The notes under the pieces: generated by a model
The model's database searches: none
What the model saw: only the letters and a program-made list of their open reading frames with translations
What the model was told of the DNA's origin: nothing
NCBI RefSeq assembly: GCF_000718165.1
Contig: NZ_JOEY01000093.1
Coordinates: forward strand, 1 to 21,647
Direction: 5' to 3'
From: Streptomyces fulvoviolaceus
GTDB lineage: Bacteria > Actinomycetota > Actinomycetes > Streptomycetales > Streptomycetaceae
Length of the DNA: 21,647 bases
Program-made: the position numbers and the translations under genes
In this document: one piece after another, positions 2,961-21,312 of the stretch
How the letters are laid out: each line of letters begins with the position of its first letter
How positions within the stretch are numbered: position 1 is the stretch's first letter

Positions 2961-2964
2961 ACGG

Positions 2965-4119
2965 ATGCGGGTGATCGGCCTGATGTCGGGCACGTCGTAC
3001 GACGCCATCGACGCGGCGGCCGCCGAGCTGCGTCTGGCCGGCGACAGCGTCGTACTCAAACCGCTGGGGATGATGAGTCAGGCGTACGACGACGAGTTGC
3101 GGGAGACACTCGCGGCGGCGCTGCCGCCCGGGGCGACCTCGGCGGCCGAGATGTGCCGGCTCGACACGAGGATCGGGCAGGCCTTCGCCGCGGCGGCCGT
3201 GCGTGCCGACCGTGAACTGTGCGACGGACGTGCCGAGTTGGTGGCCTCGCACGGGCAGACGGTCTACCACTGGGCCGCGTCGGGGCAGGTCCACGGCACG
3301 CTGCAGCTCGGGCAGCCCGCGTGGATCGCGGAGGCGACCGGGCTGCCCGTCGTCGCCGACTTCCGGCCACGCGACATCGCCGCCGGCGGCCAGGGCGCGC
3401 CCCTGGTCAGCCTGGTCGACCTGTTGTGGCTGCGTGGCCGCCCGGGCACCCCGGTCGCGCTGAACCTCGGCGGCATCGCCAACCTCACCGCACCCGACGG
3501 GACGGCCTTCGACACCGGGCCCGGGTGCGCGCTGATCGACGCGGCGGCCCGGGGGTTCAGCGGCGGACGGCTGGCGTACGACGTCGACGGCGCCCTTGCC
3601 GCGCGTGGCGAGGTCCACCAGGTCCTGCTGGACCGGCTGCTCGCGGAGCCGTACTACGCGCTGCCCGCGCCCAGGACGACCGGCAAGGAGCTGTTCCACG
3701 TCGGCTATCTGCGGGAGGCGCTCGCCGGACTCGGCACTCTGTCCGCCGAGGACGTCGTCGCCACGCTGACCCTGCTCACCGCCCGCACGGTCGCCGACGC
3801 CGTGCGCGCGCAGGGCGCCACCGAGGTGATCGCCTCGGGCGGCGGGACCCGTAATCCGGTGCTGATGAGGGAACTCGGCCGGCTGCTCCCGGGTGTTGCC
3901 CTGCGCACCTCCGACGAGCTCGGTCTGCCGTCGGCCGCGAAGGAGGCGTACGCCTTCGCCGTCCTGGGCTTCCTGACCGTGCACGGCCTGCCCGGCACCG
4001 CACCGGCGAGCACGGGCGCCCGGAACGCGCGTGTGCTCGGCTCCCTCACGCCCGGCCGGGACGGGTTCCGGCTGCCGCCGCCCGCGCGGGAGCGGCCGGT
4101 GCGGCTCGTGCTGGAGTGA
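2965..4119 (+). CDS. anmK: Anhydro-N-acetylmuramic acid kinase
   Basis: AnmK phosphorylates and hydrates 1,6-anhydro-N-acetylmuramic acid to MurNAc-6-phosphate, a cytoplasmic step of peptidoglycan recycling. The 384-residue protein is close to the roughly 370 aa of the E. coli enzyme. Visible signatures are GLMSGTSYDAIDA at residues 5-17 (phosphate-binding GTSxDxxD), SHGQTVYH, LNLGGIANLT, FDTGPGCALID near residue 183 (with the catalytic Asp) and ASGGGTRNPVLM near residue 290 (nucleotide binding). The ATG at 2965 follows an AAGG-type ribosome site within the end of the MFS gene. The 4-nt gap to that gene implies coupling. This suggests, but does not prove, that the transporter carries a muropeptide sugar or related compound. 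No MurQ etherase gene is in the window. Confidence 0.95.
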   Translation: MRVIGLMSGTSYDAIDAAAAELRLAGDSVVLKPLGMMSQAYDDELRETLAAALPPGATSAAEMCRLDTRIGQAFAAAAVRADRELCDGRAELVASHGQTVYHWAASGQVHGTLQLGQPAWIAEATGLPVVADFRPRDIAAGGQGAPLVSLVDLLWLRGRPGTPVALNLGGIANLTAPDGTAFDTGPGCALIDAAARGFSGGRLAYDVDGALAARGEVHQVLLDRLLAEPYYALPAPRTTGKELFHVGYLREALAGLGTLSAEDVVATLTLLTARTVADAVRAQGATEVIASGGGTRNPVLMRELGRLLPGVALRTSDELGLPSAAKEAYAFAVLGFLTVHGLPGTAPASTGARNARVLGSLTPGRDGFRLPPPARERPVRLVLE

Positions 4120-7982: not shown

Positions 7983-8022
7983 TCGGGATCAGCCGAACAC
8001 CGCTGTAGGCGGGATCAGCCGA
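7971..8022. repeat. 26-bp tandem duplication spanning both gene ends
   Basis: Bases 7971-7996 and 7997-8022 are adjacent copies of a 26-bp unit beginning ACACCGCTGT and ending GGGATCAGCCGA, differing at about three positions. The first copy holds the stop codon of the DMT gene. The second holds the stop codon of the convergent scramblase gene. A slippage-type duplication at the junction is the simplest explanation. Confidence 0.8.
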
Positions 8023-8875
8023 GGCCGCGCGAGTCCTGCTTGAGCGCGGTGTCGACGGTCAGCGCCGTCGCGACCACCAGGCTCAGCAGCGGCTCGGGCA
8101 GCTGGTAGTGGATCTGCAGGACGTAGTTGTCCGCGGTCGTGAACATCGTCTTGGCGAGGCCTTCCCAGGTCTTGGTGATCCGGGCGACCTCGTTCTCGGC
8201 GTGGTCGACGATCGCGAAGTTCCAGGCCCGCCAGTTCTCCGCCTTGATCGCGCCGACCTGCTGGCCGTTGACGTTCATCGCGAAGTTGATCTTGCCGATC
8301 ATGTTCTGCTGGACGATCTCGCCCACCGTCGAGCCGTCCGGACGCTGCACGATCACCCGCGACTTGAGGAACTTCGCGGGCCGGGTCAGCAGGAGCACCG
8401 GCTGGCCGTAGGCGTCGCGGATCTCCAGCTTGTGGGTCAGGAACTGGTCGACGCTGGCGACGAAGCGCAGGGCCTTCTTCAGCGCGCTCTGCCCGACCTG
8501 GATGACCGAGCCGACCTGGGTGCCCTGCTGGTTCATGACCTTGTACTCGTTGGTCAGCTCGATCAGCTTGGCCTTCTGGTTCACCACCAGGACCGGCTCG
8601 GTGAACAGCGTGCCGCCGCCGGCGCCGCTCTGTGCGACGCCGGCCTGCTGATGCACCTGACGCTGCACCCGCGGGTCGGGTCCGGCCTGCTGCTGCGGCA
8701 TCTGCGGTGCCTGCTGCACCGGCTGGGCCGGTACGCCCTGAGCCTGTCCCGCCGCCTGCTGCTGGTCCGCGTTGGTGTGCTGGGTCCACTGCGCGCCGTC
8801 CCAGTAACGGAGCGTCTGGGGCGCCCCGTGCGGATCGGGGTACCAGCCTGCAGGAGTGTTCGAATGCGTGGTCAC
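8015..8875 (-). CDS. DUF2510 - LURP-one/phospholipid scramblase-like fusion protein
   Basis: A 286-residue soluble protein. Residues 8-32 are a DUF2510 module (AGWYPDPHG...LRYWDGAQWT). A Gln/Pro/Ala-rich linker (about 35-78) follows, then a LURP-one/Tubby-like beta-barrel domain (about 85-275) with repeated strands such as LEIRDAYGQPVLLLTRP and VIVQRPDGSTVGEIVQ, typical of the scramblase-related family. The C-terminal hydrophobic helix LLSLVVATALTVDTAL is the analogue of the buried helix of the Tubby fold and may be mistaken for a membrane anchor. Eukaryotic scramblases move phospholipids; the bacterial role is not established. The start is GTG at 8875 with only a weak upstream GGGGTA. It converges with the DMT gene and shares a duplicated junction with it. 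Confidence 0.85.
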   Translation of the reverse strand: MTTHSNTPAGWYPDPHGAPQTLRYWDGAQWTQHTNADQQQAAGQAQGVPAQPVQQAPQMPQQQAGPDPRVQRQVHQQAGVAQSGAGGGTLFTEPVLVVNQKAKLIELTNEYKVMNQQGTQVGSVIQVGQSALKKALRFVASVDQFLTHKLEIRDAYGQPVLLLTRPAKFLKSRVIVQRPDGSTVGEIVQQNMIGKINFAMNVNGQQVGAIKAENWRAWNFAIVDHAENEVARITKTWEGLAKTMFTTADNYVLQIHYQLPEPLLSLVVATALTVDTALKQDSRGLG

Positions 8876-8953
8876 CGGGGCACACTACCCCGGGACCATC
8901 GGTATCTGGCCAGTCCCCTCGACAGGGCGTTCATCAGGCCTTTACCGCATCTT

Positions 8954-11008
8954 TTACTTCGCACCCAGCGCCGGGTCACTGACCCCGGGACGCCCGTTCT
9001 CGACATGTCCGGCGAATCGCCTGAGGAACGCCGGGTCGGCGTCGGACGTGACGGTCAGGTCGTACCAACGCCCGCTGCCCGCGAGGCCGAAGGTGTGCCG
9101 GACGGTGGCGCCCGACCGCACGGTGAAGGTCCTGGCCGGCTCGCCGTAGCCGCTGCTCGCCGTCAAACGCACCGTGCCGGAGCCCTTGTTGGTGAAGGTC
9201 AGCTCGACCTCGTCGCCGGTGTGCCGGGCGGTGACCTCGGGTCCGGCGGTCTTGTTCGGGCCCTTGAAGACGCGCAGGAAGCCGTTGGGGCCGTGCACGG
9301 TCAGGTCGTACGAGCCCTTCGAGTACGCCGAGTTCCAGGTGTCCGACACGGCCTTGCCGGCCTCGGTGGTGTAACTCCACGGGCCGTCGGTGCGGTTGCC
9401 GGACGTCACCAGGAACGCAGCACCGGCCTTGCCGCCGGAGGCGAAGGTGAGCGTGAACTTCCCGGCCGCGGTGTCGGCCGAACCGTCCACGCGCGGCGCG
9501 TACTTGAGCGGCCGGGCCGGACGCAGACCGCGCTCCTGTCCGGGCAGGACCGGGTTGGCGGGCGGGGTCGGCACGTAGTCGGGGTGGCGTTCACGGTCCG
9601 GCGGCTCGTAGCCGTCGGTGTCCGGGAGGGCGACCGGCTTGACGTCCTTGCGGGAGAAGTCGAAGGCCGAGGTGAGGTCGCCGGAGATCGCGCGCCGCCA
9701 GGGCGAGATGTTCGGCTCGTGCACACCGAAGCGGCGCTCCATGAACCGGATGATCGAGGTGTGGTCGAGCGTCTCGGAGCAGACGTAACCGCCCTTGCTC
9801 CAGGGCGAGACGACGAGCATCGGCACCCGCTGGCCGAGCCCGTACGCACCGGCGACGTGCCCGCTGTCGCCCGCGAACAGGTCGGGGCCGACGTCGACCG
9901 TGGACTTGCCCTGCGCGTCGGAGGCGGGCGGGAACGGCGGGACCATGTGGTCGAAGAAGCCGTCGTTCTCGTCGTAGGTGATGAACAGGGCCGTCTTCGC
10001 CCAGACCGCCGGGTCGGAGGTGAGCGCGTCGAGCACCTGGGCGATGTACCAGGCGCCGTAGTTGGCGGGCCAGTTGGGGTGCTCGGTGAAGGCCTCGGGG
10101 GCGACGATCCAGGAGATCTGGGGCAGCTTGCCGCCCTTGACATCGGCCTTCAGCTGGTCGAAGTAGCCCTCGCCCTTGGTGTAGTCGGTGCCGGTGCGGG
10201 CCTTGTCGTACAGCGGGTCGCCGGGCTGGGCGTTCCGGTACTGGTTGAAGTAGAGCAGCGAGTTGTCGCCGTAGTTGCCGCGGTAGGCGTCCTGGATCCA
10301 GCCCCAGCTGCCGTTCGCGTCGAGGCCGTCGCCGACGTCCTGGTAGATCTTCCAGGAGACGCCCGCCTCTTCGAGCCGCTCGGGGTACGTGGTCCAGCCG
10401 TAGCCGACCTCGTCGTTGCCGAGGACCGGGCCGCCGCCGGTGCCGTCGTTGCCCGTGTAGCCCGTCCACATGTAGTAGCGGTTCGGGTCGGTGGAGCCGA
10501 TGAACGAGCAGTGGTAGGCGTCGCAGACGGTGAAGGAGTCGGCGAGGGCGTAGTGGAAGGGGATGTCCTCACGGTTCAGGTACGCCATCGTCGTGGAGCC
10601 CTTGGACGGGACCCACTTGTCGTACTTGCCCGAGTTGACGGCGGCATGTCCGTCGTTCCAGCCGTGCGGGAGGTCCTCGAGGAAGGCCATGCCCAGGTCG
10701 TCGGCGTCCGGGTGGAAGGGCAGGACGTCCTTGCCGCTGCCGTCCGCCTGGTGCCACACCGACGTGCCGTTCGCCTGCGTCACCGGCCGCGGGTCGCCGA
10801 AGCCGCGGACGCCGCGGAGCGAGCCGAAGTAGTGATCGAAGGAACGGTTCTCCTGCATCAGGACGACGATGTGCTCGACGTCCTCGATCGTCCCCGTGCG
10901 GTGGTGGGCCGGGAGCGCGGCGGCGCGCTGGATGCTGTTCGACAGCGCGGTGAAAGCGGTCGTGGCGCCCGCGAGTTGCAGGAATCTGCGCCGATTGACT
11001 TCGGGCAT
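8954..11008 (-). CDS. Secreted phospholipase C, phosphocholine-specific type (Tat substrate)
   Basis: A 684-residue exported enzyme that hydrolyses phospholipids such as phosphatidylcholine to diacylglycerol and a phosphorylated head group, releasing phosphate or carbon sources. Residues 5-12 are a twin-arginine signal (NRRRFLQL) followed by a hydrophobic stretch to about residue 32. The phosphoesterase domain (PF04185 type) carries ENRSFDHYFG (53-62, metal/nucleophile region), FIGSTDPNRYYMWTG and YDENDGFFDHM near residue 345. The last ~220 residues match paired C-terminal beta domains (DUF756 type), seen as two repeats of a ...TVHGPNGFLR / LTVTSDADPAFLRRF ending. The ATG at 11008 has GAAGAGG about 9 nt upstream. 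It appears monocistronic, 78 nt upstream of the scramblase-like gene on the same strand. Related Streptomyces enzymes are phosphate-starvation regulated, but I see no convincing PHO box. Confidence 0.93.
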   Translation of the reverse strand: MPEVNRRRFLQLAGATTAFTALSNSIQRAAALPAHHRTGTIEDVEHIVVLMQENRSFDHYFGSLRGVRGFGDPRPVTQANGTSVWHQADGSGKDVLPFHPDADDLGMAFLEDLPHGWNDGHAAVNSGKYDKWVPSKGSTTMAYLNREDIPFHYALADSFTVCDAYHCSFIGSTDPNRYYMWTGYTGNDGTGGGPVLGNDEVGYGWTTYPERLEEAGVSWKIYQDVGDGLDANGSWGWIQDAYRGNYGDNSLLYFNQYRNAQPGDPLYDKARTGTDYTKGEGYFDQLKADVKGGKLPQISWIVAPEAFTEHPNWPANYGAWYIAQVLDALTSDPAVWAKTALFITYDENDGFFDHMVPPFPPASDAQGKSTVDVGPDLFAGDSGHVAGAYGLGQRVPMLVVSPWSKGGYVCSETLDHTSIIRFMERRFGVHEPNISPWRRAISGDLTSAFDFSRKDVKPVALPDTDGYEPPDRERHPDYVPTPPANPVLPGQERGLRPARPLKYAPRVDGSADTAAGKFTLTFASGGKAGAAFLVTSGNRTDGPWSYTTEAGKAVSDTWNSAYSKGSYDLTVHGPNGFLRVFKGPNKTAGPEVTARHTGDEVELTFTNKGSGTVRLTASSGYGEPARTFTVRSGATVRHTFGLAGSGRWYDLTVTSDADPAFLRRFAGHVENGRPGVSDPALGAK

Positions 11009-11179: not shown

Positions 11180-12484
11180 ATGACAGAGACGACGCGCGCG
11201 GAATCCTCGCCTTCTCCGCCTCCCCCACCGACGAAACGGCCCGTCCGCCAGCTCCTCGCCGCCTCCGTGGGCAATGCCGTGGAGTGGTACGACTGGTACG
11301 CCTACACGTTTCTGGCCACCTACATCGCCACCGCGGTCTTTCCCGAGAGCGCGGACAACTCGCTGGTGCCGCTGCTGTCGACGTTCGCGGTCTTCGCGGT
11401 GGGCTTCTTCATGCGGCCGGTCGGCGGGCTGCTGATGGGCGCGGTCGCGGACCGGCACGGACGGCGGGCCGCGCTGACGGTCACGATTCTGCTGATGGGC
11501 GGCAGCAGTCTGCTGGTCGGGCTGACCCCGACCTACGCGGCCGCCGGCGTCCTCGCACCCGTGGTCCTGGTCCTCGCGCGGCTGCTCCAAGGGCTGTCGG
11601 TGGGCGGGGAGTTCGCGGCCTCGACGACTTTTCTGGTGGAGTCGGCGGGGCCCGGCAGGCGCGGGCTGTTCTCCAGTTTCCAGTACGTGTCGACGACCGC
11701 CGGGCAGCTTGTCGCGTCCGGCATCGCGACGCTGCTCGTGGACACGCTGAGCGACGGGCAGATGAACGGCTGGGGCTGGCGGATCCCGTTCGTCCTCGGG
11801 GCCGTACTGAGCCTGGTCGGGTTCTGGATCCGGCAGGGCGCCCAGGAGACACGGAGCGAGGAGCAGCAACAGGCGCCGCGTCCCGGCCTGTTGGAGGCGC
11901 TGCGCCGCCATCCGCGCGAGTCCCTGCTGATCTGCGGCATCACGGCGGGCGGCACGATCGCCTACTACACGTGGACGTCGTACCTGCCGACGTACGCCGA
12001 ACTCAACACGGGCATCGACAAGTCGGACGCCCTGCTCGCCGGCACGATCTCGCTCGCCTTCTTCGGCCTGCTCCAACCGCTCGGCGGGCTGCTCTCCGAC
12101 CGCTTCGGCCGCCGGCCGCTGCTGCTCTTCTTCGGCCTGGGCTTCGCCCTGCTGAGCGTGCCGCTGCTGCACTCCCTGAGCGACTCCTTCGCGGTGCTGC
12201 TGCTCGTCCAGTGTGCGGGCATGGTCATGCTGACCGGCTTCACTTCGATCAGCGCGGCCGTGAACGCGGAGGTGTTCCCGCCCCGGGTGCGGGCGGCCGG
12301 CATCGGATTCCCCTACTCGCTCACGGTCGCGCTGTTCGGCGGGACGGCGCCGTATGTGGGCACGCTCTTCAAGGAGTTGGGCCACTCGGGGATCTTCCCG
12401 TGGTACGTGGCCGCCCTCTGTCTCCTGTCCTCGCTGGTGTACCTGCGACTGCCCGAAACGGCGCACAAGCCGCTACGGCGCTGA
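11180..12484 (+). CDS. MFS transporter, MHS type (KgtP/ShiA-like organic acid:H+ symporter)
   Basis: A 434-residue membrane protein with 12 predicted helices. MHS-family signatures are SVGNAVEWYDWYAYTFLA (helix 1), GAVADRHGRRAAL (loop 2-3), LLQGLSVGGEFAAS (helix 4), WGWRIPFVLG (helix 6) and LLSDRFGRRPLLLF (loop 8-9). It resembles alpha-ketoglutarate/shikimate permeases more than the first MFS protein in this window does; the actual substrate is unknown. The ATG at 11180 is chosen because the conserved-type Ser/Pro-rich leader starts there. ATG 11168 and GTG-type starts further up remain possible, and the GGGG upstream is poorly spaced. It diverges from the phospholipase C gene. It converges with the glycoside operon, overlapping its last gene by 12 bp, so it is not co-transcribed with that operon but may share its physiology. 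Confidence 0.9.
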   Translation: MTETTRAESSPSPPPPPTKRPVRQLLAASVGNAVEWYDWYAYTFLATYIATAVFPESADNSLVPLLSTFAVFAVGFFMRPVGGLLMGAVADRHGRRAALTVTILLMGGSSLLVGLTPTYAAAGVLAPVVLVLARLLQGLSVGGEFAASTTFLVESAGPGRRGLFSSFQYVSTTAGQLVASGIATLLVDTLSDGQMNGWGWRIPFVLGAVLSLVGFWIRQGAQETRSEEQQQAPRPGLLEALRRHPRESLLICGITAGGTIAYYTWTSYLPTYAELNTGIDKSDALLAGTISLAFFGLLQPLGGLLSDRFGRRPLLLFFGLGFALLSVPLLHSLSDSFAVLLLVQCAGMVMLTGFTSISAAVNAEVFPPRVRAAGIGFPYSLTVALFGGTAPYVGTLFKELGHSGIFPWYVAALCLLSSLVYLRLPETAHKPLRR

Positions 12485-13405
12485 GGTCCACCGCTCCGCC
12501 ACGGCCTTCCCCGCCCGCAGCGCGGCCACCGGGTCGGCCGCCTCGTCGAGTTCGATGAGCACGGTGTCCGCGCCGGGCGTCCGGGACATCGCGTCGGCCC
12601 AGCCCCGCCAGTCCACGATGCCCGTGCCCAGTTCGGTCATGTAGGGCTGCTGCTGGGCGAAGACCGTGTCGTCGATGGTGAGTTCGACGTCGATCGGCTG
12701 CACCGCGTCCTTCCAGTGGGCCAATGCGATGCGCTGGGAGTGGCGTCGCGCGACCGCGACGGGGTCGCCTCCGCCGAGGGCGATGTGACAGGAGTCGGGG
12801 CACAGCCACACATAGCGCGGGTCGGTCAGCGCCATGAACAGGTCGATGTCCCGCTCGTACCAGAGGGTGCTGTTGGACTCCGTGTGGAAGGCGAGCTTCA
12901 CCCCGTGCCGGGCGACGGCCTCACCGACCACATGGGCGATGTCGGCCATCCGCGTCATGTACCCGGCGTCGACGAAGAAGGGCGGGCTCGTCCCGAAGGT
13001 CGTCCTCATCGGCAGCCCTGCGACGAGGAGTTCGGCGCCCGCCTCCGCGAGAAAGGCCGCGCGGCGCTCGGCGTCGGCGACGATCGCGGGCAGGTTGTCG
13101 CCGTGCCGCCAGTCGGGGGCGTCGCTGCCGGCGATGAAGGCGCTCACGACGGACAGGCCGCGGGCCTCCAGTTCACGACGGAAGGAGGCCGCGCTGCCGA
13201 AGGCCCGCAGGGCCGAGTCGATGTCGCCGGGCGCGAAGGTCAGCTCGATGCCGGTGACACCGGCTTCGGCGAGAGCGTCCATCACCCGCGCCCAGAAGCT
13301 CTCGGGGTTCGTCAGGGCCCAGTCGCGCACGGCGTCGCCGGAGTCCAGGCCCCAGAAGTCCGGGTGGTAGAAGGTGATGACGTCGGTCGCGAAAGCGGGC
13401 GTCAT
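12473..13405 (-). CDS. TIM-barrel sugar (phosphate) isomerase/epimerase-like enzyme, AP_endonuc_2 fold
   Basis: A 310-residue (beta/alpha)8 protein. Putative metal ligands in the family order are Glu176 (AFHTESNST), Asp204 and His207 (CPDSCHIALGG), His230 (ALAHWKD) and Glu285/287 (VLIELDEA). GTGIVDWRGWADAM at 260-273 is the usual substrate-loop region. The fold covers xylose-isomerase-like, IolE/IolH-like, 3-keto-sugar lyase/epimerase-like and DgpC/CarC C-glycoside-cleaving subunits. Being last in an operon with a pyranose-oxidase-like flavoenzyme, I favour action on an oxidised (keto) sugar or keto-glycoside. The ATG at 13405 overlaps the deaminase stop (ATGA). It is served by GGAGGGG (13410-13416), itself the last copy of a 21-bp repeat. 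The exact reaction is not determined. Confidence 0.85.
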   Translation of the reverse strand: MTPAFATDVITFYHPDFWGLDSGDAVRDWALTNPESFWARVMDALAEAGVTGIELTFAPGDIDSALRAFGSAASFRRELEARGLSVVSAFIAGSDAPDWRHGDNLPAIVADAERRAAFLAEAGAELLVAGLPMRTTFGTSPPFFVDAGYMTRMADIAHVVGEAVARHGVKLAFHTESNSTLWYERDIDLFMALTDPRYVWLCPDSCHIALGGGDPVAVARRHSQRIALAHWKDAVQPIDVELTIDDTVFAQQQPYMTELGTGIVDWRGWADAMSRTPGADTVLIELDEAADPVAALRAGKAVAERWTSAP

Positions 13406-14076
13406 TCGGCCCCTCCACGGACGTTTTCGGCCCCTCCGCGGGCGTTTTCGGCCCCTCCGCGGGCGTTTTCGGCCCCTCCGCGGGCGTTGTAGACGACGAT
13501 GTCGTCGGCCGCGTCGACGGCCTCCCGGTAGTTGCGGAAGACGGCAAGGGCCTCGTCCCGGAGCACATCTCCTACGACCTTGATCCTGCGTGCCTCGAAC
13601 TGCTCGGCCCAGTCCGCGCCGAGCGGGCCCTCGTCGAACGTGGTGATCTCCTCCAGTTCCGGGCCCTCGCCGGCGACCACGAGACCACGCACCCCGGACC
13701 ACATCGTGGCGCCGTAACACTGGATGCAGGGACGCCAGTTGACGACGAGCTCGTGGGCCGGCAAGCCGTCGCCGCCGAGGTCCCAGCCGCCGGTCGCCGT
13801 CTGGGCGAGGCCGAGGGCGACGACCTCGGCGTGCGCGCTGGAGATGCCGGAGGCGAGCACGACGTTCACACCGACGGAGACGATCCGGCCGGTGTCCTGT
13901 TCGGCGACGAGCGCGGCGAACGGGCCGCCGTTGCCCTCGCGCCAGTTGCGGTCGGCGAGCCGGTGCACGAGACGCATGCGGTCGTCGCGGTCGGGAAGGA
14001 CGGCGGGCACGTCGGCCAGTTCGTCGTCGATCCAGGCCGGCAGGGCGACGCGGTATTCCTTCGCGATGTCGATCAC
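13402..14076 (-). CDS. Nucleoside/base deaminase, cytidine deaminase-like (CMP/dCMP zinc-binding) fold
   Basis: A 224-residue zinc-dependent deaminase of the TadA/guanine deaminase group (COG0590-like). The zinc motifs are HAE at 82-84 (SSAHAEVVALG, with the proton-shuttling Glu84) and PCIQC at 116-120 (Cys117 and Cys120). The N-terminal ~45 residues precede the usual core GGPFAALVAE. Such enzymes hydrolytically remove an amino group from cytosine, guanine, adenine or similar aminated heterocycles. Finding one inside a sugar-uptake operon suggests an amino-bearing aglycone or nucleoside-type substrate (inference). The C-terminus is odd: residues 197-224 are four copies of N(A/V)RGGAE encoded by a 21-bp DNA repeat. 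It starts at GTG 14076 with GAGAGG about 10 nt upstream, 13 nt after the flavoenzyme stop. It overlaps the TIM-barrel gene by 4 nt. Confidence 0.88.
   Translation of the reverse strand: MIDIAKEYRVALPAWIDDELADVPAVLPDRDDRMRLVHRLADRNWREGNGGPFAALVAEQDTGRIVSVGVNVVLASGISSAHAEVVALGLAQTATGGWDLGGDGLPAHELVVNWRPCIQCYGATMWSGVRGLVVAGEGPELEEITTFDEGPLGADWAEQFEARRIKVVGDVLRDEALAVFRNYREAVDAADDIVVYNARGGAENARGGAENARGGAENVRGGAE
13405..13488 (-). repeat. Four-copy 21-bp tandem repeat carrying repeated Shine-Dalgarno sequences
   Basis: Four contiguous 21-bp units (13405-13425, 13426-13446, 13447-13467, 13468-13488). Three are identical and the one nearest the TIM-barrel start differs at two bases. On the minus strand each unit contains GGAGGGGCCGA. 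In the last unit this is followed directly by the ATG of the TIM-barrel gene. The same DNA encodes the N(A/V)RGGAE heptad tail of the deaminase. Confidence 0.95.
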
Positions 14077-14089
14077 TCGTCGATTCCTC

Positions 14090-15643
14090 TCAGTGCGCGG
14101 CGAGCGCGGAGTTGCGGGCGGCGACGGCTCGGGCGGCCCTGATGGCGGTCACCGCGCCGGTCAGGGTGACGTTGGCGGCCATCGCCGTGGGGATCACGCC
14201 GTTGCCGGCGAGGTACAGGTTGTCGTGGCCCCACACCCTGCCGTCGGGGTCGCACACACTCGTGCCGTCGTCGACGGCGCCGGCCCGGACGGTGCCGGTC
14301 AGGTGCAGCGACGAGCCGGGCGGGAGCACCGCGCACTCGGTCGCGGGGTCGAACGGGCCGAACTCCTCGGCCAGCGACCGGACTTCGTCGAGGGCCCGTG
14401 CGATCAGCGCGCGGTCGGCGTCGGAGTAGCCGAACTCGACGCCGATGCGCGGCATCCCGGCCAGGTCGGTCTCGGTCGCCGAGAACACGAGCCGGTTCTC
14501 GGGACGCGACTCGACGGGGGCGTACAGCGACAGCCCGACGGAGTGCGCGAGGGGACGCTCGTCCTCGTCCACGTACGTGCGGTTCATGATCTGTCCGTGG
14601 AAGGGCTGCGCCGCGCCGTTCTGCGGCAGCCAGAGCGAGTCGGTGCAGAACTCGCCGGGGCGCTGCAGGGGCAGGTCGTCGACTGCGATGCCGAAGCGGT
14701 CCAGGTCGAGCAGCACGCGGGCGGTGATGAACGCGTGCTCGTTGAGGTGGCGGCCCAGTGCCGTGGGCCGGATGCCCGAGGCGAACAGGAGCTGCGGGGT
14801 GCGCAGGGCGTCCGCGCAGACCACCACGGTGTCCGCGAGGAGTTCGGACTCGGTGCCGTCGACGATACGGCGGAATCGGGCGCCGGTGACCCGGCCGTCG
14901 GCCGTGACGAGGAGCGAGGTCACGAGGGCGCCGGTGACCAGGGTGAAGGCCGGGTCCCCACCCGTCGCGATCGCGGGGAAGATCGTCCCCGGGGCGGTTC
15001 GGGGCATGGGGCCACTCGGTGTGGCGGTGACCGCCATGGGCATCGGCTGAGGCCGCCGGTCGTCCGGGCCGACTCCGTCGAAGTGCCGACGCAGCACGTC
15101 AAGTACCACGTCTCCGACGGCAGTCGGCCCGATCGCCGAGGGTGTGACCGCGAGCGCCTGGCGCGCGATGTCCAAGTCGGCTGCCCAGCGGTCCGGTTCG
15201 CCGAAGTCGAACACCTCGTCCCCGGCGGGCCACGGTGTGGCGGCGGTCCAGTGGACGCCCATGCCGCCCGCGTTCCACGCGAGCGCGGCCTGCGGCATCG
15301 CCTCGGCGTCCTCGCCGAAGGCGAGCGCGTGGAACATGCCGGGCGTCAGGTCGGTGAGGCTGTCCGCGGCCTCGCGCACCACCTCGGCGCCCGTGTACAT
15401 GCCCTGGATGCCGGTGGCTACCTGTTCGTTGTAGCGCGCCCAGAGGACCGGGTCGTCGAGGTCGTGCAGGTGCAGGCCGGGGGTCTCGCCGATCGCGGTG
15501 CCGCCGTCGACCATGGTGATGTCCAGCGCCGGATCGGTGGCGCGCAGCTGCCGGGCCACGACGGATCCCATGATGCCGCTGCCCACGATGAGGACGTCGG
15601 TGCGGAGGGTGGGGGTCAAGTGGGACTCCATAGGTTGGTGCAT
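14090..15643 (-). CDS. Pyranose 2-oxidase/glycoside 3-oxidase-like FAD-dependent oxidoreductase (GMC fold)
   Basis: A 517-residue flavoenzyme. LIVGSGIMGS near residues 18-27 is the Rossmann FAD motif. GGMGVHWTAATP near 126-137 matches the pyranose-oxidase flavinylation motif (GxxTHWTCATP in the fungal enzyme), so His131 may bind FAD covalently. LHLTGTVRAG places a candidate catalytic His near 447, and PTAMAANVTLT an Asn near 491. The ~44-residue spacing equals that of the His548/Asn593 pair of Trametes pyranose 2-oxidase. Family members oxidise C2 or C3 of free sugars or of C-/O-glycosides. At ~515 aa it is closer to bacterial glycoside 3-oxidases than to ~620-aa fungal enzymes. No signal peptide is seen, so it acts on imported substrate. 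The start is uncertain: ATG 15643 (8 nt after the ROK stop) or ATG 15631, neither with a good ribosome site. Confidence 0.87.
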   Translation of the reverse strand: MHQPMESHLTPTLRTDVLIVGSGIMGSVVARQLRATDPALDITMVDGGTAIGETPGLHLHDLDDPVLWARYNEQVATGIQGMYTGAEVVREAADSLTDLTPGMFHALAFGEDAEAMPQAALAWNAGGMGVHWTAATPWPAGDEVFDFGEPDRWAADLDIARQALAVTPSAIGPTAVGDVVLDVLRRHFDGVGPDDRRPQPMPMAVTATPSGPMPRTAPGTIFPAIATGGDPAFTLVTGALVTSLLVTADGRVTGARFRRIVDGTESELLADTVVVCADALRTPQLLFASGIRPTALGRHLNEHAFITARVLLDLDRFGIAVDDLPLQRPGEFCTDSLWLPQNGAAQPFHGQIMNRTYVDEDERPLAHSVGLSLYAPVESRPENRLVFSATETDLAGMPRIGVEFGYSDADRALIARALDEVRSLAEEFGPFDPATECAVLPPGSSLHLTGTVRAGAVDDGTSVCDPDGRVWGHDNLYLAGNGVIPTAMAANVTLTGAVTAIRAARAVAARNSALAAH

Positions 15644-15651
15644 GGGGGGGA

Positions 15652-16791
15652 TCACGCGTTCGGGACGAGGGGGCCGAACAGTTCGGTGTCCATGCGGTCG
15701 AGGGCCAGCTTCACGGCGCCGATGAGCGGGGCGTCCTGGCCCAGGCCGGTGGCCCGCAGTTCGATCGCGGGGGTACGGGCGTCGCGCAGCGCCTTGCGTA
15801 CCCGGGGCAGCAGCACGTCGGCAGCGTCCTCCAGGCCGCCGCCGAGCACGATGAGCGAGGGGGCGACCGTCCACGACAGGGTGGTGAGGATGGACGCGAT
15901 GTTCTCCACGAACTCGTCGACCTCGGCGAGTGCGGTCGCGTCGCCCGCGCGGGCCGCCTCGAACCGGCCGAGCGCGACGCTCCGTCGGTCGGGTTCCGGT
16001 GAGGTGAGCCAGGCCACGGGGCGGTTCTCCACCGAGCCGGCCGGCAGCGACACCGCTTCGACGATCTCGCCCGCGGCACCGTCGAGACCACGGTGCACGG
16101 CCCCTCGGATGAGAATGCCCAGGCCGGTCCGGTTCCCGAGCATGGCCCATACGACGTTGTCGTGGTCGCCGGCCACGCCCCGCCAACGCTCCGCGAGCGC
16201 ACCGAGGTTGGTGTCGTTGTCCGCGAACCAGGGCATCCGGACGCGTCGCCCGAGTTCCCCCGGCAGGTCCACGCCCTCCCATCGCGTCGTGTGCACCAGA
16301 CGCCGTACGACTCCCTCGTCGTCGATCGCGCCACCGGCCGCGACCGCGCCGGCCCGGAGCCGTTCCGGCGACCCGCCCGCGTCGTCGAGTGCCTCGCGTA
16401 CGAGCGTCGCCGCGTCGTCGAGGCTGGTCTGCGGATCCTGGTAGGCGCGCAGCGGCCGGTGTGACCGGCCGAGGATGCGGCCGCGTACGTCGGCGACGAC
16501 CGCGGACACGTCCAGGGTGGTGATGCGCACGGCGGCCAACAGGGCGTGTTCGGCCCGCAGTTCGTAGCGGCGGGCGGGCCGTCCCGCGGAGCCGGCGAGG
16601 GGCACGCGGTCCAACTCCGCCACCCAGCCCGCCTCGACGAGCGAGTCCAGGACGATCTCGATCGTACGGCGGGACAGGCCCGTCTGCTCGGCGAGCGCGG
16701 TCAGCTTCCTCGGCCCGGCCGACACCGCCAACGCCCGCAGGATCACTGCCGTGTTGACCCGTCGTACCGCGCTCTGGTTCATCCCCGACAT
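15652..16791 (-). CDS. ROK-family transcriptional regulator
   Basis: A 379-residue protein with an N-terminal winged HTH (about residues 29-60, LTALAEQTGLSRRTIEIVLDSLVEAGWV) and a C-terminal ROK sugar-kinase-like domain. NagC/XylR-type members repress sugar operons until a sugar ligand binds. The catalytic-position Asp is present (PWFADNDTNLGALAE, about 187-201). The usual Cys-rich zinc motif (CxCGxxGCxE) is missing after the GAAGEI element, so it is unlikely to be a kinase and its DNA control may differ from classical ROK proteins. Start ATG 16791 is chosen because GGAGG lies 7 nt upstream and it forms a TGATG overlap with the esterase stop; ATG 16797 is too close to that site. As fifth gene of the operon it probably autoregulates it. 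Confidence 0.9.
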   Translation of the reverse strand: MSGMNQSAVRRVNTAVILRALAVSAGPRKLTALAEQTGLSRRTIEIVLDSLVEAGWVAELDRVPLAGSAGRPARRYELRAEHALLAAVRITTLDVSAVVADVRGRILGRSHRPLRAYQDPQTSLDDAATLVREALDDAGGSPERLRAGAVAAGGAIDDEGVVRRLVHTTRWEGVDLPGELGRRVRMPWFADNDTNLGALAERWRGVAGDHDNVVWAMLGNRTGLGILIRGAVHRGLDGAAGEIVEAVSLPAGSVENRPVAWLTSPEPDRRSVALGRFEAARAGDATALAEVDEFVENIASILTTLSWTVAPSLIVLGGGLEDAADVLLPRVRKALRDARTPAIELRATGLGQDAPLIGAVKLALDRMDTELFGPLVPNA

Positions 16792-18119
16792 CAGCATGCC
16801 TCCGCCCCCGCCCGCACGACGGGATCGAACACGCCCTTGGTGTCGGCGGCGAGCGCCGCGCCGGGTCGGCCGTATTCGCGGGCCGGATCGCCGAGCGTCC
16901 CGGTCGCCCGTGCCCAGCCCGGCTCCTGGCCGCGGACGAAGCCGACCAGATCGGCGTGCATCAGCGTGGCCAGGTCCGCGGGCGGCCTCGGACCGAGCGT
17001 CTGAGCCACGCCCGGTGCGTCGAGCACGTCGAAGAAGAACGGGATGTCGATGCAGTGCGTGGCGCCGCCGAGCACGGGCGAGGGCCATTCGAAGGAGTAC
17101 AGCCAGGTGCCGGCGGACCCGGCGCGCCGGGCGGACGCGGCGCGCGGACAGGCGGAACGGAACAGGGTGTCCGTCACCCGGGTGCCGGCCGCGCGCTTCT
17201 CCGGTGTGCCGGCGCCGTCGAACTCGTCGCCGGTCGCGCCGAGCAGCAGGGGTACGTCGTGCCCGTGGCCGGCGAGTCCCTCGGCCACGGGCACCGGCAG
17301 GACGTCGTCGCCGACGAACGGGGCGAGCACGAGCACGTCGTCACCCCGCAGGTCGAGGACGCCCTGTTGGAGCTGCTCCGGCGTGCGGCTGCCGAATCCG
17401 GCCCGCGTCGGCGGCACGCCGAGCCTGTGCCCGAGCCGTTCCAGGAAGTCGTGTCGCGCGCCCCCTTCGAAGAAGCCGCCGGACAGGCTCACCGCGCGGT
17501 GGAAGCGGCCTCGGGCGGCGGGCGACGACAGGAGCGCGAGCACCGCCGCTCCCCCGGCCGACTGGCCGGCGACGGTCACCCGGTCCGGATCGCCGCCGAA
17601 CGCGGCGATGTTCTCCTGGACCCAGTCGAGGGCGCACAGCAGGTCGCGCAGTCCGAGGTTCGTGGGTGCGTCGTCGAGTACGGCGAACCCGTCGACGCCC
17701 AGCCGGTGGCCGACCGTGACCGTGACGACGCCGTCGCGGGCGAAGGCGCGGCCGTCGTACCAGGGGCTGGCCGGGCTGCCCGCCAGGAAGCCGCCACCGT
17801 GGATCCACACCAGGACCGGCAGGAGCGTACGGTCCGCACCCGCGGCCGGGGCGACGATGCCGAGGTTCAGCACGTCGTCACCCGGCACCGACGGCTCCGG
17901 AATCGTGGTCGTGGCGAACAGCGGTACGCACTGCGAGGTGGCGCCGTGCCGGGACGCGTCGAACGGCTCCGTGAACCGGCCGCGTGGCACGGGCACGGCG
18001 AACCGCCTTGCTCCGGTGGGGACTTCGGCGTACGGGATGCCGAGGAAGCGCCGGACGTGGCCGGTGCGCCGGCCGACGAACGTGCCCGCGGGCGCGTCGG
18101 TCGAGTCCATCGCGCTCAC
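16791..18119 (-). CDS. Type-B carboxylesterase (alpha/beta hydrolase)
   Basis: A 442-residue cytoplasmic serine esterase with no signal peptide. The catalytic triad is visible: Ser187 in GQSAGG (185-190), Glu299 in GATGDEFDG and His355 in GGATHCIDIPFFF. The oxyanion hole motif is HGGGF (107-111). Family members cleave carboxylic esters of varied alcohols. They are usually ~500 aa, so this is a shorter version lacking some of the lid region. Within a sugar ABC operon it most likely removes acyl groups (acetyl, aryl or phenolic) from the imported compound; this is inference. It starts at GTG 18119, overlapping the permease stop by 4 nt (GTGA). An ATG three codons later (18110) is an alternative. 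It ends in a TGATG junction with the ROK gene. Confidence 0.9.
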   Translation of the reverse strand: MSAMDSTDAPAGTFVGRRTGHVRRFLGIPYAEVPTGARRFAVPVPRGRFTEPFDASRHGATSQCVPLFATTTIPEPSVPGDDVLNLGIVAPAAGADRTLLPVLVWIHGGGFLAGSPASPWYDGRAFARDGVVTVTVGHRLGVDGFAVLDDAPTNLGLRDLLCALDWVQENIAAFGGDPDRVTVAGQSAGGAAVLALLSSPAARGRFHRAVSLSGGFFEGGARHDFLERLGHRLGVPPTRAGFGSRTPEQLQQGVLDLRGDDVLVLAPFVGDDVLPVPVAEGLAGHGHDVPLLLGATGDEFDGAGTPEKRAAGTRVTDTLFRSACPRAASARRAGSAGTWLYSFEWPSPVLGGATHCIDIPFFFDVLDAPGVAQTLGPRPPADLATLMHADLVGFVRGQEPGWARATGTLGDPAREYGRPGAALAADTKGVFDPVVRAGAEAC

Positions 18120-18937
18120 CGCATTCCCGTCCCGGCGATGCCCTGCACGAAGTAGCGCTGCAGGAACAGGAAGAGCAGCAGTACCGGCAGCATCACGACG
18201 ATCGCGCCGGCGAGCATCAGGCCGTAGTCGGTGACGTGGGCCGCGGCCTGGCTGGTGGCGGCGAGGCCGACCGGCAGCGTGTAGGTGGACATGCTCTGGG
18301 CGACGATGAGCGGCCAGATGAAGTTGTTCCACGAGGCGAGGAACGACATGATCGTGATCGTCGCGACGGCCGGTCCGGCCAGCGGGAGGAAGATCCGGAA
18401 GAAGATCCGGAACTCACCGGCACCGTCGATGCGGGCCGCTTCGAGGAGTTCGTCGGGGATCGACAGTGCGTACTGCCGCATGATGAACACCGACATGGGC
18501 AGGGCCACGCCGGGCAGGGCGATCCCGGTGAGGGTGTCCGCGAGCCCCATGTCGACGGTGATCACGAACTGCGTGACGAACACCGCGCTGAACGGCACCA
18601 TCATGGCCGCCATGACCGCGCCGAACGCGAGCCGCTTACCGGCGAATTCGAGCTTGGCGAGCGCGTAGCCCGCCGCCGAGGCCGCCACGATGTTGCCGAC
18701 GACCACCATGAGCGCGACCACGATGCTGTTGACCATGAACCCGCCGAAGCCCTCGGTCGCGAACAGCCGGGTGAAGTTGTCGAAGGTCAGGTGTTCCGGG
18801 ATCCAGGCGCCGGGGTCGGCGCGGATCTCGTCGAGGCTGCGCAGCGAGCCACTGACCGCCAGGGCGAACGGGAGCATCGTGAGCAGCGCGCAGAGGATCA
18901 GGGCGCCGTACAGCAGGGGGCGGCGGTAGAGGGTCAT
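18116..18937 (-). CDS. Carbohydrate ABC transporter permease, MalG type
   Basis: A 273-residue inner-membrane subunit with six predicted helices. The cytoplasmic EAA loop that docks on the ATPase reads EAARIDGAGEFRIFFRIFLP (about residues 180-199), matching the CUT1 family. The C-terminal helix ends QRYFVQGIAGTGMR, the typical MalG-type tail (QRxFVxGIxxGAVK). Start ATG 18937 overlaps the stop of the upstream permease by 4 nt (ATGA). It works as a heterodimer with the preceding permease. The operon contains no ATPase gene; in Streptomyces a shared MsiK-type ATPase commonly energises such importers. Confidence 0.95.
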   Translation of the reverse strand: MTLYRRPLLYGALILCALLTMLPFALAVSGSLRSLDEIRADPGAWIPEHLTFDNFTRLFATEGFGGFMVNSIVVALMVVVGNIVAASAAGYALAKLEFAGKRLAFGAVMAAMMVPFSAVFVTQFVITVDMGLADTLTGIALPGVALPMSVFIMRQYALSIPDELLEAARIDGAGEFRIFFRIFLPLAGPAVATITIMSFLASWNNFIWPLIVAQSMSTYTLPVGLAATSQAAAHVTDYGLMLAGAIVVMLPVLLLFLFLQRYFVQGIAGTGMR

Positions 18938-19884
18938 GTGCGGGACCTCAGCAGCCGGAACTGGACGACGCTCACCACGGCCACCAGCACGAGCATCACG
19001 AAGGACGCCGCCGAGGACGTACCGAACTCGCCGGATCCGAACTGGCGGTAGGTGTACAGCGCGACCGACTCGGTGGAGCCGAGCGGGCCGCCGCCCGTGA
19101 GCAGGTACGGCTCGTCGAAGACCTGGAGGTAGAAGACGGTCAGGAGGACGGAGACCATGAGGGTGGTGGGGAGCAGCAACGGCAGGGTGATGTGCCGGAG
19201 TTGACGCCATCGCCCGGCCCCGTCGAGGGAGGCCGCCTCGTACACGTCCTGCGGGATCGCCTGGAGACCGGCGAGGAACAGGACCATCGCGGTGCCGAAG
19301 TTGCGCCAGACGCCGAGCAGGATGACCACGGGCATGGCGAGGTTCGGGTCGTCCAGCCAGTTCGGTCCACCGAGGCCGACGGCGCCGAGCACTTTGTTGA
19401 CGGTGCCGTCGGCGTTGAAGGCGTACTGCCAGATCAGGGCGACGGCGACGACGTTGGTGACGACCGGCGCGAAGAAGACGGTACGGAACACCCCGCGCAG
19501 CCGCCGGATGCCGGAGTTCAGCGTGAGGGCCAGGGCGAAGCCGATTCCCATGGTCAGCGGCACGCCGACGGCCACGAAGAGGGCGGTGTTCAGGATGTCC
19601 CGCACGAAGGTCTCGTCCTGGAACAGCCGGGCGTAGTTCTCGAGGCCGGTGAAGTTGACCGCGAACGGGGTCCGCAGGTCCGCGCCCCGCAGGTCGGTGA
19701 GGCTGAACCCGAGCGCGGCCACGGTGGGGATCGCCGTGTAGAGCAGGAACACCACGGCGAACGGCGCGAGGAACAGCCAGGCGACGGCCGTACGACGGAG
19801 GGCGGGCCTGGAGCGACGCGCCTCGCGCGGCTGCACCGAGGGCGGCCGCGTCCGGCGCGTGCCGGGGATGAGGGTGACGGTCAT
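18934..19884 (-). CDS. Carbohydrate ABC transporter permease, MalF type
   Basis: A 316-residue inner-membrane subunit with a basic N-terminal extension of about 32 residues, then six helices beginning AVAWLFLAPFAVVFLLYTAI. The EAA loop reads EAASLDGAGRWRQLRHITLP, as in CUT1 sugar importers. QVFDEPYLLTGGGPLGSTES near residue 255 is the conserved sugar-permease segment preceding helix 6. The ATG at 19884 lies 7 nt after the stop of the binding-protein gene. With the next permease it forms the transmembrane channel for the imported glycoside. Confidence 0.95.
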   Translation of the reverse strand: MTVTLIPGTRRTRPPSVQPREARRSRPALRRTAVAWLFLAPFAVVFLLYTAIPTVAALGFSLTDLRGADLRTPFAVNFTGLENYARLFQDETFVRDILNTALFVAVGVPLTMGIGFALALTLNSGIRRLRGVFRTVFFAPVVTNVVAVALIWQYAFNADGTVNKVLGAVGLGGPNWLDDPNLAMPVVILLGVWRNFGTAMVLFLAGLQAIPQDVYEAASLDGAGRWRQLRHITLPLLLPTTLMVSVLLTVFYLQVFDEPYLLTGGGPLGSTESVALYTYRQFGSGEFGTSSAASFVMLVLVAVVSVVQFRLLRSRT

Positions 19885-19891
19885 CGGCGGG

Positions 19892-21190
19892 TCACTCCGC
19901 CCCCGTACCGACGCTCTCGGCGTACGCCTGGATGTTCGCGGCCGCCTTCGCCGCGGTCTGCTTGCCCTTGGCCACGGCTTCCGTCTCCTTGCCCAGCCGG
20001 GTCGCGACCTGCTGCCAGGTGCTCACCTGCGGGAAGGCCCGGGTGTTCTTGAGCTGGGTGAAGAAGGCGCCGAGGAGCGGCTGCCCCTTGATGGCCGAGT
20101 CGTCCCAGGCGGAGATGACGGCGGGCAGCGAGCCGTACGCCTTGTACTGCGCGACCTGAGTGCTGGGCCCCGCGAGGTGACGGACGAGCTTCCACGAGGC
20201 GTCCGCGTTGTCGCTGTTCGCGAGGACGCCCCAGGTGCCGCCGGCGGAGAAGGAGACGCTGCCCGAGGCCCCGGCCGGCAGGGGTGCGGTGGCGACGTGG
20301 GAGGCCGTCCAGCCGTCCTTCTTCGCGGCGGTGTCGAGCTGGCCGACGACCCACGGGCCGGTGATCATCGAGGCGGTCCTGCCGGAGACGAAGTACGGCT
20401 GCGCGTCGAGGAAGGTGGGCCCGCTGGTGTCGGCGGTTCCCTCGGTGAAGAACGACGCGTTGTACTTGAGCGCGTCGACCATCTCCGGGGTGTTCAGGGT
20501 CCATTTCCCGGCGGAGGAGACCAGCGAGCCGCCCGCCTGCCAGGCGTACATCGCGATGTCCTGGCCGTTGAAGATGTCCCAGCCGATGTCGGCCCCGAGG
20601 CCACGGGTGGCTCCGGCGCTCTGGAGCGCCTTGAGGAACGGCGTCATCTGGTCCCAGGTGGTCGGCGCCTCGACGCCGGCCTTCCTGGCGAGGTCGGAGC
20701 GGTAGACGAGCGCGTAGGTGTAGGCGTACCAGGGCACCGTGTAGGCCACGTCCCCGACCACACCGGCGTCCCAGAGGCTCTCGAAGAAGCTGTCCGGATC
20801 CACCAGACCGTCCGGAACCGGCTGCAGGGTCGACGAGTCCAGGAACTGTGCCTGCGACTCGGGGAAGAACTGGGCGACATCGGGTCCCTTGCCCGCCGCG
20901 ATCGCCGCCTGGAGCTTGGTGTAGTACTCCGCGTTCGGGATCAGCGTGGTCTTCACGACGAGGTCGGGGTTCGCGGCCTTGAAGGGCTTGACGACCTTGT
21001 CGAGCACGTCGGCGTCGCCCTGAGCGGCCCAGACGTCGACGGTGCCGGTGGCCGGGGAGGCGTCGACCTTCTTGACGGTGCCGGCGGCGGCCGTGCCGTC
21101 GTCGCGTCCGCAGCCGGCCAGGGGAAGAGCGGCGCCGAGCGCCAGGCCGGCGGTCAGTCTGAGGGCGCCGCGTCGGGAGAGGTGGGGCAC
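19892..21190 (-). CDS. Sugar ABC transporter substrate-binding lipoprotein
   Basis: A 432-residue extracytoplasmic CUT1-type binding protein. The N-terminus has a twin-arginine-like SRRGALRL at residues 5-12, a hydrophobic segment and the lipobox LAGC at 24-27, so Cys27 would be lipidated. The Tat-like signal plus lipobox is common in Streptomyces. The mature protein follows the SBP_bac_1/8 pattern (VDVWAAQGDADVLDKVVKPF, GKGPDVAQFF, ITGPWVVGQL, GGTWGVLANS). GTG at 21190 is preferred because AGGAG lies 6 nt upstream; the longer frame from GTG 21208 would place that ribosome site inside the gene. It is the first gene of the eight-gene operon and defines ligand specificity, which cannot be read from sequence. 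Confidence 0.93.
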   Translation of the reverse strand: MPHLSRRGALRLTAGLALGAALPLAGCGRDDGTAAAGTVKKVDASPATGTVDVWAAQGDADVLDKVVKPFKAANPDLVVKTTLIPNAEYYTKLQAAIAAGKGPDVAQFFPESQAQFLDSSTLQPVPDGLVDPDSFFESLWDAGVVGDVAYTVPWYAYTYALVYRSDLARKAGVEAPTTWDQMTPFLKALQSAGATRGLGADIGWDIFNGQDIAMYAWQAGGSLVSSAGKWTLNTPEMVDALKYNASFFTEGTADTSGPTFLDAQPYFVSGRTASMITGPWVVGQLDTAAKKDGWTASHVATAPLPAGASGSVSFSAGGTWGVLANSDNADASWKLVRHLAGPSTQVAQYKAYGSLPAVISAWDDSAIKGQPLLGAFFTQLKNTRAFPQVSTWQQVATRLGKETEAVAKGKQTAAKAAANIQAYAESVGTGAE

Positions 21191-21290: not shown

Positions 21291-21312
21291 ATTTCGGAAC
21301 TTGTAGCGAAAT
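21291..21312. promoter_or_regulatory. AT-rich inverted repeat, candidate ROK operator
   Basis: ATTTCG (21291-21296) and CGAAAT (21307-21312) form a perfect 6-bp inverted repeat with a 10-bp spacer, in an AT-rich island in otherwise very GC-rich DNA. The spacing and the T-run/A-run outer halves resemble NagC-type ROK operators (TTATTT...AAATAA). It lies about 100 bases upstream of the operon's first start codon, which fits autoregulation by the operon's own ROK protein. The link is inferred. Confidence 0.45.

Follow-up and report, generated by a model that had tools for sequence, protein, structure and literature searches.

A conserved actinobacterial operon predicted to degrade glycosides by sugar oxidation includes an NWRPC-type deaminase

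Introduction

The closest described relatives of the operon reported here, an eight-gene unit on the minus strand (12473-21190) of Streptomyces fulvoviolaceus contig NZ_JOEY01000093.1, are two kinds of deglycosylation cluster and two individually studied enzymes. Throughout, the window is the whole 21,647-nucleotide stretch of this contig that was analysed. The CarABC and PsG3Ox/PsCGD clusters (PMC10646112) resemble the operon in combining a flavo-oxidase of the same family with a partner of the TIM (triosephosphate isomerase) barrel fold. However, their C-glycoside deglycosidases (CGDs) are alpha/beta pairs, whereas the operon has one TIM barrel and no CGD beta subunit, its oxidase falls in clade III instead of clade IV, and a deaminase is present. 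The GlycDH/AtOGE/AtHYD operon of Agrobacterium (PMC10628242) works by C3 oxidation and then by a metal-dependent TIM barrel that has no beta subunit, the arrangement also predicted here. The HxH motif of AtOGE is kept in one of the two TIM barrels found in our operon family (type 2) but is HxE in the other (type 1, the form in the window); the Agrobacterium oxidase comes from another family, and the operon here has no Gfo-type reductase and adds a deaminase and an esterase.

For the oxidase, the reference is ScPOx of Streptomyces canus, the characterised clade III enzyme (PMC9659204, PMC10807413), which shares its family and the clade motif GVHW with the window protein. ScPOx was studied as an isolated enzyme, no operon being named in the available portions of these sources, and the text of PMC10807413 contains none of the words 'operon', 'gene cluster' and 'deaminase'. 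For the deaminase it is NE0047, the guanine deaminase of Nitrosomonas europaea (2g84 and others), with a common fold, zinc ligands, catalytic Glu and C-terminal YNAR; the operon protein differs in an NWRPCxQC motif, a one-residue insert before FDEGP, a longer stretch before YNAR and its membership of a glycoside operon.

We found that the eight genes recur together in many actinobacterial genomes, and at the level of protein families it is close to certain that they constitute a glycoside operon working by sugar oxidation. The best reading, to which we give about an even chance, is that the substrate is a pyranoside with an amino-N-heterocycle as aglycone and is deglycosylated oxidatively.

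Results

Operon organization and conservation

Open reading frame coordinates and a Pfam scan bear out the sequence-only reading from which this work started, in that eight genes of the families it named lie on one strand at the positions it gave. The first encodes a CUT1-type sugar-binding lipoprotein (19892-21190; SBP_bac_1, E 5e-36) whose nearest solved chains are sugar-binding proteins, followed by a MalF-like permease (18934-19884) and a MalG-like permease (18116-18937), so that the lipoprotein and two BPD_transp_1 permeases expected of a CUT1 transporter are all found in the operon. Next come a type-B carboxylesterase (16791-18119; COesterase, E 6.6e-68), a ROK transcription regulator (15652-16797; ROK and HTH_IclR), a flavoenzyme of the GMC family (14090-15631, with a possible start at 15643; GMC_oxred N and C domains), a deaminase of the cytidine-deaminase superfamily (13402-14076; dCMP_cyt_deam_1) and an IolE-like TIM barrel (12473-13405; AP_endonuc_2). 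The genes are tightly packed: a 7-nt gap separates binding protein and first permease, the two permeases overlap by 4 nt, as do the second permease and the esterase, esterase and ROK genes overlap by 7 nt, and a 13-nt gap between flavoenzyme and deaminase is followed by a 4-nt overlap of deaminase and TIM genes. The earlier description of all gaps as 13 nt or less stands if the flavoenzyme starts at 15643, which leaves 8 nt behind the ROK gene, and fails with a start at 15631, which leaves 20 nt. Pfam revealed no ATPase among the eight operon proteins, to which that search was confined; the ATPase of CUT1 transporters in Streptomyces is often the shared MsiK.

Scanning named genomes for the flavoenzyme yielded 93 relatives, the best 80 of which were kept and represent 75 distinct loci, and the counts below therefore describe near relatives. 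Gene presence was scored for each locus by tblastn at more than 100 bits, with the window proteins and a type 2 TIM barrel as queries; some of the loci end at contig borders. The ROK gene was found in 74 of the 75 loci, the permeases in 74 and 73, the binding protein in 72 and the deaminase in 66. One outlying locus, L102, has only unrelated permeases (29-31%). The esterase is an optional member (39/75), and de-esterification, which the sequence-only reading had made a step of the pathway, is accordingly an option only. Every locus has exactly one of two distantly related types of TIM barrel, type 1 in 53 and type 2 in 22. Type 1 is accompanied by esterase and deaminase in 31 loci, by the deaminase alone in 21 and by neither in one; for type 2 the corresponding counts are six, eight and six, with two further loci having the esterase alone.

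Loci of Streptomyces and Nonomuraea share the order binding protein, permease, permease, (esterase), ROK, flavoenzyme, deaminase, TIM barrel, and an equivalent order with the other TIM barrel occurs in Promicromonosporaceae, Rathayibacter, Agreia and one Microbacterium. Because the order recurs in Streptomyces, Nonomuraea and other families, the gene set is a conserved operon and not a chance arrangement; conservation of the neighbourhood around the flavoenzyme, the check proposed at the outset, was thus confirmed over the 75 loci. In a genus-level sample, the oxidase was detected in 36 of 392 genomes (E<=1e-60), 27 of them with at least 79% identity and nine with only distant copies (<=51%), and a deaminase match adjoins the oxidase in all 27 genomes with a close copy. 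At the same threshold the deaminase was detected in 30 genomes, these 27 plus three others. A class-wide sample gave the oxidase in three of 374 genomes (E<=1e-120), all three being operon genomes, and plasmid records gave no deaminase match at E<=1e-40.

To count gains and losses we used an oxidase tree of 41 rows, comprising 17 hand-picked loci of the 52 from Streptomyces and Nonomuraea, 22 of the 23 others (L107 was removed by a length filter), the window and one outgroup. On this tree the deaminase requires four changes, the TIM type two and the esterase eight. The pattern is compatible with, though no proof of, a deaminase acquired once at an early stage and lost again later, a swap of the TIM barrel apart from the outlying L102, and recurrent gain and loss of the esterase.

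Some copies look irregular. The oxidase match is split in two pieces in L101 (9001-10526), and the deaminase aligns at only 59% in L044 and in L007/G122; these are possibly damaged copies. A second deaminase copy lies elsewhere in the genome in G125, G261 and G292. Oxygenases of one related 2-oxoglutarate (2OG)-Fe(II) family stand beside the operon in 8 of the 75 loci, which come from different bacterial families, behind the TIM gene in five (L039, L042, L049, L052 and L103) and on the other strand before the operon in three (L090, L096 and L100).

The flavoenzyme resembles clade III glycoside oxidases

The flavoenzyme aligns over its full length with its nearest solved relatives 8qve, 7dve and 7qf8, of which 7dve is MtCarA (PMC9659204). 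Its catalytic His and Asn align with those of 8qve and 7dve, although a crude motif count over the 75 relatives was mixed. Clade III of the actinobacterial pyranose/C-glycoside oxidases (POx/CGOx) is keyed by GVHW and the consensus R(P/T)(F/Y)VDEDG(E/R) (PMC10807413). The window protein has GVHW, the flavinylation motif, as do 72 of the 75 relatives, and its substrate loop, RTYVDEDER, is one residue off the published consensus; the strict VDED pattern fits seven of the 75, with drift in the others (e.g. RTYVDEAGR). By its sequence the enzyme fits clade III, and the question whether it would group with glycoside oxidases was answered in the affirmative by the full-length alignment and GVHW.

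Glycoside oxidation itself has been demonstrated for the probable orthologue ScPOx, whose activity was 7.35 U/mg on puerarin at 0.2 mM, 0.045 on glucose, 0.006 on naringin and 0.001 on rutin, and whose authors do not take monosaccharides as natural substrates (PMC9659204). Clade III enzymes also oxidise homoorientin and isovitexin (PMC10807413). ScPOx (UniProt A0A117Q443, an accession not matched to one of our loci) is very likely an orthologue of the operon oxidase, since each of three S. canus genomes holds one such gene, in the operon and 82-86% identical to that of the window.

Two interchangeable TIM barrels

Profile matches of the window TIM barrel include IolE, 3-keto-glucopyranoside lyases (8tcs, 8tcd and 8tct) and a 2-hydroxy-3-keto-glucal hydratase, with the hydratase 8ro4 and 8bvk among the chains matched. 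Together with the oxidase alignment and GVHW, these matches support the broad outline of import, flavin-dependent sugar oxidation and cleavage involving the TIM protein. The fold by itself names no function, because in the fold comparison IolE, a dehydratase and the nearest fold, is followed by other AP_endonuc_2 enzymes with nearly equal scores, and the relationship to the 3-keto-glycoside lyases AtOGE, AL1 and BT1 is at the superfamily level common to many isomerases. No C-glycoside deglycosidase was among the best 50 matches listed, which excludes nothing.

Residues H174, D204, H230 and E285 of the metal site are invariant in 18 aligned TIM barrels, and this His, Asp, His, Glu set agrees with the text of PMC10628242. 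The position of the catalytic His was assigned through the alignment and the same text: two residues past the first metal His, type 2 proteins keep this His (LHNH in 22/22), and type 1 proteins have Glu (His-Thr-Glu in 53/53). Since the two types replace each other one for one, and type 2 keeps both histidines, the exchange suggests that both carry out the same central step; the type 1 protein is a putative 3-keto-glycoside eliminase or hydratase.

Behind the type 1 gene, 5 of the 75 loci (L040, L054, L058, L060 and L086) have a second AP_endonuc_2 TIM barrel resembling hydroxypyruvate isomerases and epimerases, that of L086 being shortened. A type 1 protein that acts as a hydratase or epimerase after spontaneous or distant cleavage, without breaking the bond itself, would agree with the presence of these second barrels, with the HxE motif where AtOGE has HxH and LHNH is constant in type 2, and with IolE as the nearest fold. 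The one-for-one exchange with a type that retains both histidines argues the other way, and we regard this alternative as unlikely.

The sequence-only reading had drawn a parallel to CarC/DgpC, which is not supported: besides the Glu at the catalytic position, the CGD beta-subunit family PF19906 is missing. It had no match in the S. fulvoviolaceus genome, in which the control set of the search also matched nowhere, and of 13 further operon genomes it was absent from 12. As the control was silent in the first search, only the 13-genome scan, with one positive genome serving as its control, is a real test. That genome, Microbacterium sp. B19, has five matches, four of them over the cut-off, and none within 19.5 kb around its operon. 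A Car/Dgp-type C-deglycosylation operon was rejected on the missing beta subunit.

The NWRPC deaminase and its relatives outside the operon

By its sequence, the deaminase is the new element of the operon and defines a subfamily with a signature of its own. The zinc site is kept (HAE and PCxxC, corresponding to H82, E84, C117 and C120 in the alignment), and Asn71 and Glu149 are the equivalents of Asn66 and Glu143, which contact guanine in NE0047. FDEGP is present in all 66 operon deaminases. The usual EPCxMC, by contrast, is replaced by NWRPCxQC: EPC occurs in 11 of 11 ordinary proteins aligned, and NWRPC in 13 of 13 aligned operon proteins and in 66 of 66 overall. A plain guanine deaminase label was rejected because of this replacement, although the protein may act like one.

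A 21-bp tandem repeat of 4.4 copies (13395-13488, minus strand) extends over the deaminase stop and the TIM start, so that both the last part of the first gene and the ribosome-binding site of the second fall inside it. The deaminase gains about 21 residues from the repeat; this extension is missing from the aligned relatives, whose sequences finish with YNARGGAE, and from a database protein of 203 aa that is identical throughout. The expansion is either strain variation or an assembly artefact.

Relatives with the NWRPC signature also occur away from the operon. In two Streptomyces loci (L137, 9547-16022; L138, 3796-10260) an NWRPC deaminase with 63-67% identity is the last gene of a row that also encodes a Rieske oxygenase with its reductase and an ABC transporter of the NMT1 type. 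The nearest solved relatives of the oxygenase are SxtDIOX/SxtT and the methylxanthine N1-demethylase NdmA, whereas the binding protein is closest, among solved structures, to an unnamed solute-binding protein and to one that binds pyrimidines. Class-wide, the NWRPC deaminase was detected in 19 of 394 genomes (E<=1e-58), 16 beyond the three operon genomes, and 12 of these 16 non-operon loci were examined. A Rieske gene adjoins the deaminase in eight of the 12 (L163-L169 and L171), in one case judged from a 45-residue match. In L170 the deaminase stands beside xanthine dehydrogenase and NMT1-type transporters, and in L160 (3623-14850) a PnrA-type transporter, a 2OG-Fe(II) oxygenase, the deaminase, xanthine dehydrogenase and a short-chain dehydrogenase/reductase form one row, likely a purine catabolic set with an unusual deaminase. 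The xanthine dehydrogenase subunits of L160 also match in 7 of 21 short loci (3.5 kb) of ordinary deaminases. Streptomyces loci L134, L135, L136 and L139 have no such partners, the one exception being L134, where the opposite strand carries a distantly related Rieske gene (27%).

Rieske-linked deaminases have NWRPC(V/A)MC and GFDEGP, and operon deaminases NWRPC(V/I)QC and TFDEGP, with the Q of the latter also found in L160 and L161. The theme shared by the NWRPC sets is the stripping of a group from an N-heterocycle followed by deamination, and the Rieske-linked set looks like an undescribed catabolic set of the methylpurine type. Since NWRPC relatives stand beside NdmA-like Rieske or xanthine dehydrogenase genes, they point to an aglycone resembling an aminopurine or aminopyrimidine.

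A likely operator upstream of the operon

About 100 bp upstream of the binding-protein gene lies a 22-bp dyad, ATTTCGnnACnnGTnnCGAAAT (21291-21312), which a search for perfect short palindromes had not shown and which was detected through words common to the loci. Its core matches exactly at 21292-21311, with 0.02 matches expected by chance in the window. The core is present in all 52 loci of the Streptomyces/Nonomuraea type (39 exact, 13 with one mismatch) and in one of the 23 others (L081, two mismatches), three of which have no binding-protein match and one of which, L080, has no upstream sequence. The dyad is likely the operator of the ROK regulator, to which we infer that the protein binds; similarity of the regulator to NagC and Mlc is weak. 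The 11.6-Mb S. fulvoviolaceus genome has one exact copy, and allowing up to two mismatches gives 10 places versus 8 for a reversed control, so that only the exact copy is credible. A wider regulon that might have named the substrate was therefore dismissed, there being no credible further copies in this genome.

Neighbouring genes

A divergent major facilitator superfamily (MFS) transporter gene and a phospholipase C/scramblase-domain pair (8015-11008) lie downstream of the operon and outside the unit. The same pair recurs in L134 (9587-13330, genome G201), directly behind a lone NWRPC deaminase (82%) that is possibly the remnant of a lost operon. Further away, at 1719-4119, a sugar-type MFS transporter gene and one for AnmK (anhydro-N-acetylmuramic acid kinase), 4 nt apart, are likely a cell-wall sugar recycling pair.

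Discussion

The operon is best read as a catabolic unit under its own regulator, acting on a pyranoside with an aglycone that would be an amino-substituted, purine- or pyrimidine-like N-heterocycle, a proposal that builds on the gene families, their order and conservation, the active-site residues and the dyad, all legible in the DNA. The CUT1-type transporter would import the glycoside, from which the esterase, in some strains, would first take off an acyl group. The clade III flavo-oxidase would then convert the C3 hydroxyl of the sugar to a ketone with O2, producing H2O2, and the IolE-like TIM barrel, probably metal-dependent, would break the 3-keto sugar's bond to the aglycone by beta-elimination or, alternatively, act on the resulting keto-glycal. 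The NWRPC deaminase would hydrolyse the heterocycle, whether already freed or still bound, at its exocyclic amine, giving NH3 and an oxo-heterocycle, with the ROK protein repressing the unit through its one operator. Here we infer the elimination step, the aglycone class and the order of deamination.

Several observations weigh against this proposal. Puerarin, an isoflavone C-glucoside, is the preferred substrate of ScPOx, which performs poorly on those O-glycosides that were assayed (PMC9659204), and the window TIM barrel has Glu176 where AtOGE and PuCGE have the catalytic His. The NWRPC change itself indicates a substrate other than plain guanine. The deaminase is separable from the operon, being absent from 9 of the 75 loci and present without a close oxidase in three of the 392 genus-level genomes (G182, G193 and G201). 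No purine or pyrimidine gene was found near the operon, the L160 xanthine dehydrogenase giving no match above 70 bits in the 75 loci, and two of the non-operon NWRPC loci (L161 and L162) have no telling partner.

The puerarin activity of ScPOx, the oxidation of homoorientin and isovitexin by clade III enzymes and the nine loci without a deaminase would suit an operon that degrades such nitrogen-free plant glycosides in the manner of CarABC/Dgp, with the deaminase as a passenger or in a side function. However, the CGD beta subunit is lacking from the S. fulvoviolaceus genome and from nearly all the operon genomes scanned, and the deaminase is retained in most loci, which span several families, and in the window its gene and the TIM gene overlap. 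A passenger would hardly have a class-specific motif in every one of the 66 proteins, and we give this explanation a distinctly low probability. Still less probable is an amino-sugar glycone, in which C3 oxidation and elimination would yield a 2-amino-3-keto-glycal (an enaminone) for the deaminase to relieve of its amine: such a vinylogous amide is a conceivable zinc-deaminase substrate, the substrate pocket beside the zinc is altered and the ROK protein has its faint likeness to NagC and Mlc, but the guanine-contacting residues are kept and the NWRPC relatives accompany nucleobase-type rather than amino-sugar genes.

Returning to the amino-heterocyclic aglycone, we propose tentatively, with the chances against it, that soil actinobacteria have a non-hydrolytic route for hexopyranosyl purines or pyrimidines by C3 oxidation and elimination, in which the NWRPC deaminase acts on a guanine-type amine. 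One concrete candidate, offered as a guess since nothing in the sequence singles it out, is the faba bean glucoside vicine, including its acylated forms; hexosyl purines, pterin glycosides and cytokinin glucosides are further candidates. Vicine, in which the glucose is O-linked, has a 2-amino group where convicine has a 2-oxo group, which is the change that a guanine-type deaminase makes. Faba seedlings contain malonyl, hydroxyadipoyl and ferulic derivatives (PMC10934171), and such acylated forms would give the optional esterase a job. In the open-licence literature, a scope outside which most subscription journals fall, we found no oxidase-deaminase operon and no pyranose oxidase together with a guanine deaminase, and a search for keto-glycoside lyases gave no result. 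Its titles and abstracts held nothing on point for guanine deaminase with Rieske or methylguanine, for cytokinin, purine or pterin glycosides, or for C-glycosides or nucleosides with a deaminase in Streptomyces, and vicine degradation with deaminase gave food papers.

These results place the clade III pyranose/C-glycoside oxidases, studied so far as isolated enzymes, in a conserved pathway, and define two interchangeable TIM barrels and a deaminase subfamily with the NWRPC signature. The same subfamily also marks a second, Rieske-linked gene set that resembles methylpurine catabolism. If the reading of the aglycone is true, soil actinobacteria degrade N-heterocyclic glycosides without glycosidases, and if the candidate substrate is true as well, the enzymes could be used to rid faba bean of vicine and convicine.

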